From Candidatus Uhrbacteria bacterium (GTDB taxonomy: Bacteria; Patescibacteriota; Patescibacteriia; 2-12-FULL-60-25), in NCBI GenBank assembly GCA_003576745.1, contig QEVR01000001.1, positions 248,001 through 312,000 on the forward strand: DNA of 64,000 nt. Reading direction: 5' to 3'. The notes beneath the pieces were generated by a model. It saw nothing but the letters and a program-made list of their open reading frames with translations. It searched no databases and was not told the DNA's origin. A program made the translations under genes and the position numbers. This document shows positions 39,017-45,090 of this stretch, in pieces (positions within the stretch are counted from its first letter, which is position 1; the number at the start of each line of letters is the position of its first letter).

Positions 39017-39091
39017 TGGAGCCAGCTCCGGGATTTGAACCCGGGACCTCTGCTTTACGAAAGCATTGCTCTACCGCTGAGCTAAGCTGGC
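39017..39091 (-). tRNA. tRNA-Thr (anticodon CGT)
   Basis: Reading the minus strand, the acceptor stem is GCCAGCT paired with AGCTGGC, then a U discriminator and an encoded CCA. The anticodon loop TTCGTAA gives CGT, reading ACG. The anticodon stem ATGCT/AGCAG has one A-G mismatch at its outer pair. The T arm is CCGGG-TTCAAAT-CCCGG. It is one base downstream of tRNA-Gly in the same transcript. Confidence 0.93.
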
Positions 39092-39092
39092 C

Positions 39093-39167
39093 TGGAGCGG
39101 GTAAGGGGAATCGAACCCCTCTCTAATGCTTGGGAAGCATTCATAATAGCCACTATACGATACCCGC
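39093..39167 (-). tRNA. tRNA-Gly (anticodon CCC)
   Basis: Minus strand: acceptor GCGGGTA paired with TACCCGC, U discriminator, and encoded CCA. The anticodon loop TTCCCAA on a stem AATGC/GCATT gives CCC, reading GGG. The T arm GGGG-TTCGATT-CCCC is regular. It precedes tRNA-Thr. Confidence 0.93.
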
Positions 39168-43624: not shown

Positions 43625-44671
43625 ATGAGCCCCAGCCCTATGTCTCTTTCCGCTTTTTTCCTCACCAATCCTCTTCAGGGCATTCCCGTGATATTTGTAT
43701 TCGGCGCGCTCTTGATTGGACTCTATGTCGTGGTCCGCGGCGCAGACTGGCTTGTTGACGGTTCCTCGTCCATCGCCGCGCGCTGGGGTATTCCGGCCAT
43801 CGTGATCGGGCTTACCGTCGTAGCCTTCGGCACCTCCATGCCGGAGCTTATCGTGAATATTCTTTCTTCCGTTACGGGAAGCACGGGGCTCGCCATCGGC
43901 AATGTCGTTGGTTCCAATATTGCGAATATCCTGCTTATTCTTGGCGCAACGGCCGTCTTTCGATCGCTTGCGGTGAAAGAGAATACCGTATGGAAAGAAA
44001 TTCCTATGGCCTTTCTCGCCATGATTCTGCTTTGGGTCATGTCGAATGACGCATTTCTCGCCGGCGCCGCCGTAAATGTTTTGGACCGCATTGACGGCTT
44101 TGTCTTTTTAGCTTTTTTCATTATCTTCCTGTACTACACATTCGGTATCAGCAAAGTGGAGGGAGAGGCGCCGAAACCGGAGGAATTTCCGTTCGCGGCA
44201 TCCATCGGTTTGGTCGGTCTCGGCATAGGTGCGCTTACGCTTGGCGGGAAAATAACGGTTGACGCCGCTACCGCGTTTGCGTCTTCTGTGGGGGTGAGCG
44301 ATGCCCTTATCGGTCTTACCGTGGTAGCTCTCGGCACATCGCTTCCGGAACTCGTTACGTCCATTGCCGCCGCCCGGAAAGGCAAAGCCGATCTCGCCAT
44401 CGGCAATGTCGTCGGTTCCAACATCTTCAATATTTTTTGGATTCTGGGCGTGAGCGCCCTTATCCGCCCCCTGCCATTCGATACGTCAAGTTCTTTCGAC
44501 GTCCTTGTGGCCGTTGCCGCATCTCTTTTGCTTTTCATATCATTGTTCGTCCGCCGCTTCCTCCGCGCTCCGCAAACGGTTGCCGCACGTCATACCCTCG
44601 GCCGCAAACGGGGCATTATTTTTCTGATCCTCTATGTTGCGTATATCGCATTTGCGGTGTGGAGGGGATAG
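43625..44671 (+). CDS. Calcium/sodium antiporter (CaCA family, YrbG-like)
   Basis: A 348-aa membrane protein with about ten helices in two inverted halves, each with the alpha-repeat signature: GTSMPELIVNI plus GNVVGSNIANILLILG, and GTSLPELVTSIAAARKG plus GNVVGSNIFNIFWILG. These acidic GTSxPE motifs bind Ca2+/Na+ in the YrbG/NCX fold. It likely exports calcium across the cytoplasmic membrane. A second ATG at 43640 is possible. The 3' end lies beside repeat copy 10. Confidence 0.93.
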   Translation: MSPSPMSLSAFFLTNPLQGIPVIFVFGALLIGLYVVVRGADWLVDGSSSIAARWGIPAIVIGLTVVAFGTSMPELIVNILSSVTGSTGLAIGNVVGSNIANILLILGATAVFRSLAVKENTVWKEIPMAFLAMILLWVMSNDAFLAGAAVNVLDRIDGFVFLAFFIIFLYYTFGISKVEGEAPKPEEFPFAASIGLVGLGIGALTLGGKITVDAATAFASSVGVSDALIGLTVVALGTSLPELVTSIAAARKGKADLAIGNVVGSNIFNIFWILGVSALIRPLPFDTSSSFDVLVAVAASLLLFISLFVRRFLRAPQTVAARHTLGRKRGIIFLILYVAYIAFAVWRG

Positions 44672-44770
44672 CGGGTTGCGGCGTACACGGTGGCGTCGCT
44701 GCGTAGGGGGAACCGAGTCGCGAATAGTTTGTTTTTCTACGCAACCACGCAACCACGTACTTCCCCCTTG
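44672..44770 (-). repeat. Intergenic modular repeat element, copy 10 (inverted D pair)
   Basis: D words face each other: GGCGTCGCTGCGTAGGGGG in one sense, and TTCTACGCAACCACGCAACC continuing to ACGTACTTCCCCC in the other. The latter is the reverse complement of the GGTTGCGTGGTTGCGTAGG / GAGTACGTAG words of copy 1. The element ends at the tRNA-Gln promoter. Confidence 0.75.
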
Positions 44771-44796
44771 AAAAAGAGTCCATGATCATGTATTCT
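44768..44796 (+). promoter_or_regulatory. Promoter of the tRNA-Gln locus
   Basis: TTGAAA (44768-44773) and TATTCT (44791-44796) are spaced by 17 nt. The predicted start near 44803 is followed by a small GGCGC-TAA-GCGCC hairpin (44812-44824) before the first tRNA fragment. Confidence 0.6.
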
Positions 44797-44840
44797 CGCA
44801 ACGCTTCGCTAGGCGCTAAGCGCCCCGTCATACCAACCTT

Positions 44841-44867
44841 TCGGGGGTCGTCTAATGGTAGGACAGC
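44841..44867 (+). pseudogene. 5' fragment of tRNA-Gln (outer half)
   Basis: These 27 nt are identical to positions 1-28 of the complete tRNA-Gln at 44917: acceptor strand TCGGGGG, D arm GTCT-AATGGTA-GGAC, and the first two anticodon-stem bases. It then diverges into ATCCGGCGCCTG, where GGACAG/CTGTCC could form a new hairpin. It has no anticodon loop. See the findings for the proposed relation to the 3' fragment at 45021. Confidence 0.85.
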
Positions 44868-44886
44868 ATCCGGCGCCTGTCCCGAA

Positions 44887-45011
44887 ACGTTTCGTCGAAA
44901 TGATTGCTTTTTGCGCTCGGGGGTCGTCTAATGGTAGGACAGCGGCCTTTGAAGCCGTGAATCCTGGTTCGAGCCCAGGCCCCCGAGCGCAGAACACAAA
45001 TGACGAAACGT
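44887..45011 (+). repeat. Inverted-repeat frame around the inner tRNA-Gln
   Basis: ACGTTTCGTC (44887-44896) is complementary to GACGAAACGT (45002-45011). Closer in, TGCGCTCGGGGG (44912-44923) pairs perfectly with CCCCCGAGCGCA (44980-44991), so the tRNA acceptor stem is lengthened to 12 bp. The DNA between the two pairs of arms is not complementary and would form an internal loop. Confidence 0.8.
44917..44987 (+). tRNA. tRNA-Gln (anticodon TTG), complete body without encoded CCA
   Basis: Acceptor TCGGGGG/CCCCCGA with G73; D arm GTCT-AATGGTA-GGAC; anticodon stem GCGGC/GCCGT with loop CTTTGAA (anticodon TTG, reading CAA); T arm CCTGG-TTCGAGC-CCAGG. U1-A72 and G73 are the usual glutamine identity elements. 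The three bases after G73 are CGC rather than CCA, and G73 could pair with C-1 in the extended stem, which may hinder normal end processing. The tRNA lies inside an inverted-repeat frame between two fragments of itself. Confidence 0.88.
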
Positions 45012-45020
45012 GAGGGAAAA

Positions 45021-45056
45021 CCGTGAATCCTGGTTCGAGCCCAGGCCCCCGAGCCA
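45021..45056 (+). pseudogene. 3' fragment of tRNA-Gln with CCA (outer half)
   Basis: The 33 nt at 45021-45053 are identical to 44955-44987 (end of the anticodon stem, variable region, T arm, acceptor strand and G73) and are followed by CCA, which the complete copy lacks. A terminator begins two bases later. With the 5' fragment at 44841 it would rebuild all of a tRNA except positions 29-39, the anticodon arm centre. Confidence 0.85.
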
Positions 45057-45057
45057 T

Positions 45058-45090
45058 AAAAAACCGTCAAATAATGACGGTTTTTATTTT
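45058..45090 (+). terminator. Terminator of the tRNA-Gln locus
   Basis: CCGTCA (45064-45069) pairs with TGACGG (45075-45080) around AATAA, extended by A- and T-runs and followed by TTTTTATTTTT. One terminator serves the whole nested locus. Confidence 0.88.

Follow-up and report, generated by a model that had tools for sequence, protein, structure and literature searches.

The native tRNA-Gln(UUG) gene of this Candidatus Uhrbacteria genome has, in our reading, which we hold with good confidence, been split by a hairpin element with a complete rescue tRNA as its cargo, the outer copy being dead, the inner copy the working gene and a GIY-YIG protein the possible mobiliser. The locus covers 216 nt (44841-45056) of the window, i.e. 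the 64,000-nt stretch of DNA that was analysed, and lies between one promoter-like and one terminator-like site. All the pieces named in an earlier note on this DNA, i.e. the outer halves, the inner tRNA, the inverted repeat, the stem extension, the paired G73 and the placement of the CCA, are present at this locus, and its claim that one promoter and one terminator enclose the whole nest also holds. The features are given below by their positions in the window.

43625-44671, + strand: gene for a calcium/sodium antiporter-like protein, located upstream of the nest (the NCBIfam antiporter match is weak and covers the first 60 residues only)
44768-44796, + strand: promoter-like site TTGAAA-17-TATTCT (9/12 in a consensus scan; the sole one before the nest)
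44841-44867, + strand: 27-nt 5' half of the outer, split tRNA-Gln (same letters as 44917-44943 of the inner copy; acceptor pairing with the outer 3' half 7/7)
44870-44884, + strand: 5' end motif of the insert, CCGGCGCCTGTCCCG (common to nests of other families, e.g. L113, L145, L149 and L150)
44887-44896, + strand: left arm of the 10-bp inverted repeat, ACGTTTCGTC
44912-44916, + strand: left arm of the acceptor-stem extension, TGCGC
44917-44988, + strand: inner complete tRNA-Gln(UUG) without encoded CCA (ARAGORN; Rfam RF00005, 61.5 bits; genome census)
44987-44991, + strand: right arm of the acceptor-stem extension, GCGCA, with G73 as its first base
45002-45011, + strand: right arm of the 10-bp inverted repeat, GACGAAACGT
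45014-45020, + strand: 3' end motif of the insert, GGGAAAA (agrees with GCGGGAAA / GCGGGAGA of other nests)
45021-45053, + strand: outer 3' half, 33 nt, followed by CCA at 45054-45056 (same letters as the 3' half of the inner tRNA; base-paired with the outer 5' half)
45059-45085, + strand: intrinsic terminator-like hairpin with T tract (the sole terminator-like site at the nest)

The anticodon is absent from the outer halves (44841-44867 and 45021-45056). Second exact copies of 27 nt and 33 nt inside 150 nt are more than chance allows. The linkers on the two sides of the inner tRNA are complementary, both through the 10-bp repeat and through TGCGC/GCGCA, which continues the acceptor stem to 12 contiguous pairs with G73 being paired, and hence the inner tRNA forms the tip of a long hairpin. 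The predicted fold of the 216 nt has a free energy of -99 kcal/mol (z = -4.8 against shuffled sequences), and the hairpin with the inner tRNA alone gives z = -6.3. The inner and the outer copies are identical here, so a foreign inner allele is not shown by this locus alone. There is no ORF within the insert and no GIY-YIG ORF in 44841-45056. An 82-aa ORF on the minus strand (44809-45057; MARGPGLEPGFT...) runs antisense to the tRNA copies and is probably a spurious protein of the kind that automatic annotation may report. Elsewhere in the window, a single base separates tRNA-Gly(CCC) from tRNA-Thr(CGT) on the minus strand (39017-39167), and a strong terminator hairpin comes after them.

The host genome (1.06 Mb in 4 contigs, 97.35% complete) has 46 detected tRNAs. 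Whether it holds a second tRNA-Gln(TTG) was a question raised by the earlier note; none was found among the 46, the other Gln tRNA having the anticodon CTG. As the census turned up no tRNA-Gln(UUG) apart from the inner copy, we expect this copy to be functional. CCA is encoded in 44 of the 46 tRNAs, the two exceptions being the nested tRNA-Gln(UUG) and tRNA-Pro(GGG). The tRNA-Pro(GGG) locus (L233, G000:C3:350300-351700) has a flanking 13-bp inverted repeat and an outer 5' half ~130 nt upstream, with a palindrome in the D-arm of that half, and may also have a decayed 3' half downstream. With its missing CCA, its inverted repeat and its separate 5' half, this gene seems to have undergone a similar event, which would make two in the same genome. 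The genome also encodes a CCA-adding enzyme and RNase III, and because of the former the absence of CCA on the inner tRNA is in principle no obstacle.

An undisturbed version of the locus is found in a member of the same genus (L053), where an ordinary intact tRNA-Gln(UUG) with CCA stands directly downstream of the homologue of the antiporter-like gene (53% identity by tblastn). This upstream gene served as the locus marker, and the alignment of the two loci, which placed the relative's tRNA on the inner copy, is uninformative on the breakpoints. The tRNA-Gln(UUG) gene is also plain in most of the other family members that we read.

The nested arrangement recurs in other genomes. A search of relatives gave half copies beside full tRNA-Gln genes, and reading these loci together with a motif scan of GTDB genomes gave tRNA-Gln inside tRNA-Gln with the same linker in at least six further genomes (L113/L146, L145, L149, L143, L144 and L150), whose named records are labelled Kerfeldbacteria, Roizmanbacteria, Niyogibacteria and, in one case, simply 'bacterium'. 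The Kerfeldbacteria locus L143/L166 (JACQPY010000013) is a triple-nested tRNA-Gln with three different alleles and with more palindromes in its outer halves. Nests of Phe, Ile, Ser, Tyr and Pro tRNAs, partly read by eye from the fetched tRNA loci, are present in two relatives (G058 and G085), and there are half copies beside several other tRNAs. One locus (L250, G085:C2:111900-113100) is a triple-nested tRNA-Ser, with the inner, middle and outer alleles being different.

We compared 15 nest layers, i.e. the window and 14 others, each being a complete tRNA inside a split tRNA of the same isotype. In every layer the two outer halves can form one acceptor stem between them, with 7/7 pairs in 13 layers and 6/7 in two. 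The inner and the outer alleles are the same in some nests and very different in others, L144 being the clearest case; we used the pairing counts and these extremes, as several of the identity counts of the layers are affected by one-base register shifts. The finding that the outer halves match each other while the inner allele can differ fits a native gene split by a tRNA-carrying insert rather than a decayed tandem array. Seven nests have an inner acceptor stem that runs on for 7-13 further contiguous pairs; among the host's 44 CCA-encoding tRNAs this extension is 0-2 pairs, and 7 in one case. Two further loci have their own layouts. At L119 (G072:C2), a unit of a tRNA-Gln 5' half and a palindrome pair occurs at least four times in tandem; a full tRNA-Gln and then a GIY-YIG gene come after it, and part of the sequence is masked as N. 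At L165 (G056:C12), a motif-bearing hairpin without tRNA cargo splits an apparent tRNA-His gene, a second 3' part of which lies nearby, and no intact copy of it was found within the fetched stretch.

The Gln inserts, in the window and in the other Gln nests, have a common end motif, CCGGMGNNTRTYCC...GGGARA, and a hairpin running into the inner acceptor stem; these nests begin with CCGGMGNNTRTYCCG and finish with a GGGARA-like sequence. Variant ends occur in some nests of other isotypes, and as several of the G058 and G085 nests have other end sequences, what we treat as one family may be several. An exact search with the 16-nt motif gave 25 hits in 24 of the 381 genomes of the class, a moderate excess only over the ~15 hits of a reversed control pattern, with CCGGAGTTTATCCCGC occurring identically about a dozen times among the hits. 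About 10 of the 25 hits are in or adjoin tRNA genes, and the rest fall in short palindromes or in coding sequence. The element runs antisense to the tRNA in two tRNA-Phe nests, and its ends therefore probably act at the DNA level rather than within the tRNA transcript. The outer 5' halves of several Gln nests (L113, L143, L145 and L149) have a second hairpin in the D-arm, of the CCCGC..GCGGGACAGG type, which resembles the end motif reversed. In three genomes (L156, L161 and L171) the 16-nt motif sits in a tRNA-free palindrome ~60 nt downstream of tRNA-Pro genes. In named genomes there were eight pattern hits; the one at L148, labelled Alphaproteobacteria, comes without a tRNA and was taken as chance. 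The longer pattern had no match in viral sequences, and carriage by viruses was rejected, the six viral matches of the 16-nt motif lying inside coding sequence and looking like chance.

Larger related inserts carry a GIY-YIG gene, identified with Pfam. At the tRNAs for Lys, Leu, Ser and Arg in G058, a 5' half is followed by anticodon-arm palindromes, a handful of bases from the 3' side, an ORF of ~85-90 codons for a GIY-YIG protein and a full tRNA copy, and a similar plan of half, GIY-YIG ORF and full copy is seen at tRNA-Gln(CTG) in G001 and at tRNA-Glu in G085. GIY-YIG genes lie inside the related inserts L079, L110, L198, L215, L218 and L221. As read from its sequence, L110 holds a GIY-YIG ORF and a complete tRNA-Gln in one hairpin within a split tRNA-Gln, and hence links the GIY-YIG-bearing plan with the hairpin-nest plan. 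Of the GIY-YIG loci in 115 genomes, the 30 strongest include nine that lie within 600 bp of a tRNA, all nine being co-oriented with it, where roughly 5-8% would be expected. GIY-YIG genes are numerous in many small genomes of the class, with a maximum of 22 in one. The host genome has one single-domain GIY-YIG gene, which is not beside a tRNA, and the copy in the window would thus be non-autonomous or worn down.

We propose the following course of events. A small hairpin element with a complete tRNA-Gln(UUG) at its tip would have split the native tRNA-Gln(UUG) gene at the anticodon arm, a break there being repaired by copying in the hairpin and its tRNA; the native gene would be lost, its outer halves being dead remains, and the cell would live on the tRNA of the element. 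An insertion into an essential tRNA gene would be tolerated because the insert brings its own replacement. The inner tRNA may be transcribed from the native promoter and cut from the hairpin; RNase III and/or RNase P would probably do this together with a 3'-end enzyme, and the CCA-adding enzyme would then supply the CCA. The mature tRNA-Gln(UUG) is predicted to start at U1 of the inner copy and to end with CCCCCGAG-CCA. Repeated insertion would give Russian-doll genes, and the element would belong to a family that recurs in the class of the host and in other lineages of Patescibacteria. The candidate mobiliser is a single-domain homing endonuclease of the GIY-YIG type, carried by the larger related inserts and absent from that of the window. 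More tentatively, with a confidence that stays a little short of even, we speculate that these inserts make up a new class of selfish element, i.e. a GIY-YIG-driven parasite of tRNA genes that spreads between Patescibacteria, which is harmless through a same-isotype replacement tRNA at the hairpin tip and by whose alleles essential tRNA genes are successively replaced, leaving Russian-doll genes with tRNAs that would be released from double-stranded stems.

Several other readings of the locus have to be weighed. The earlier note had offered three of them, and its insertion cassette in the anticodon arm is the one that is well supported, by the plain tRNA-Gln behind the same upstream gene in the same-genus relative, by the linker common to nests in other families and by nested loci recurring for several isotypes. 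Its failed duplication is not supported, the outer and inner alleles often being different while the outer halves match each other. A rival is a decayed tandem array of three tRNA-Gln copies, with a full middle one between a first reduced to its 5' half and a third reduced to its 3' half. The identity of the inner and outer copies in the window and the lone half copies at several loci would fit such an array, but the sequences on the two sides of the inner tRNA are complementary to each other as far as the tRNA ends, the linker is shared by different families, no leader or trailer stands between the copies, triple nests exist, and the outer alleles elsewhere are often unlike the inner one and match each other. 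We therefore regard this reading as very unlikely. Its remaining suggestion, a cis- or trans-processed tRNA, would be a device at the RNA level in which the outer halves and the inner tRNA are joined or spliced to unite anticodon and CCA in one molecule. The division of these two parts between the copies speaks for it, the anticodon copy having no CCA and the CCA copy no anticodon, and so does the folding of the transcript as one continuous structure. We consider it highly improbable, as the outer halves have no anticodon, the junction positions vary by locus, some related loci have one half only, the end motif is found in both orientations relative to the tRNA, i.e. also antisense to tRNA-Phe, and the CCA-adding enzyme makes an encoded CCA unneeded. 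It also finds no intron family match: no catalytic intron was detected with Rfam on the window (at the gathering score) or on eight nest or insert loci (E<=3). A group I or group II intron was rejected because the outer halves are without the anticodon and removal of the insert would leave no complete tRNA. An archaeal-type split or permuted tRNA gene was likewise rejected, as the halves have no anticodon and an intact inner copy is present.

A different mobiliser would leave the insertion itself as we describe it, with a Y1/RAYT-type transposase acting on REP-like palindromes in place of the GIY-YIG enzyme. The motif is indeed also found in short tRNA-free palindromes, and 7 of the 11 genomes that have a nest or a tRNA-linked insert encode Y1 transposases, with six as the highest number in one genome. 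We find this variant unlikely, because no Y1 transposase (PF01797) is present in the host genome or in four others with such loci, and the palindromes beside the Y1 genes examined in relatives are of other types than that of the insert. An assembly artefact or a binning error might be suspected since most of the genomes concerned are metagenome-derived drafts, but the locus lies within a 432-kb contig, and the architecture recurs independently with different sequences, including in a two-contig genome, making an error of this kind extremely unlikely. The insertion of a tRNA-carrying hairpin element into the native gene remains our preferred explanation.

Invasion of an essential single-copy tRNA gene should be difficult if the insert is neither spliced out nor followed by a rebuilding of the gene, and here the insert resupplies the whole gene. 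If this explanation is true, the tRNA genes of these bacteria are turned over and swapped by selfish DNA, and standard annotation misses the nests by reporting the inner tRNA only. The cell would also have to process a tRNA out of a stem that is paired throughout and has no free leader and trailer of the usual kind, and a role would be suggested for the GIY-YIG genes that are so numerous in these genomes.

The earlier note knew of no described bacterial tRNA with this arrangement. Our search of the open-licence literature likewise found no description of a split tRNA whose two halves enclose a whole second one. The arrangement is not singular, as it recurs in other genomes. Integrase-type elements rebuild their target tRNA gene by supplying the matching end. 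They resemble the nest in that sequence supplied by the element lets the tRNA survive, but they restore the missing end of the target, whereas the target of the nest stays split around a complete second tRNA. At the window locus both tRNA ends are repeated, and 216 nt is too small for an integrase. The Rickettsia palindromic elements (RPE) and the REP/RAYT repeats are small mobile palindromes inside genes (PMC3733652). In contrast to the nest, these palindromes have no tRNA cargo, and the host genome has no matching transposase. In the archaeon Caldiarchaeum, the disrupted tRNA-Thr(GGU) locus consists of an upstream 5' tRNA fragment, a 1.8-kb putative mobile element and a downstream tRNA (PMC3293823); that element is of the recombinase kind, with no tRNA between both halves of another and no hairpin-borne tRNA. 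The rRNA genes of CPR bacteria have non-intron insertions, which carry a GIY-YIG gene or are short and ORF-less and are mostly located at the tops or bases of stem-loops (PMC11270868). These are similar to the nests in being from the same broad bacterial group, with GIY-YIG or no ORF and without an intron match, but they lie in rRNA and have no rescue copy, and tRNA genes are unmentioned there. The intervening sequences (IVS) of 23S rRNA are hairpin inserts at stem tips, which are cut by RNase III and removed from the transcript without ligation (PMC11270868); their host RNA works in pieces, whereas the host tRNA of the nest would be dead, with the insert carrying the function. Group I introns in tRNA anticodon loops, with their homing endonucleases (PMC3984707), share with the nest the tRNA target, the homing endonuclease and the harmless insertion, but no intron core was found in the nest and its rescue would come from a whole replacement tRNA and not from splicing. 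The tRNA-Sec gene in selB (PMC8124441) is, like the nest, a tRNA gene within another bacterial gene, but its host is a protein gene and no tRNA lies within a tRNA. Compared with all these systems, the nest may be a new form of the tRNA-targeting elements that preserve the tRNA, and possibly a new class of them.
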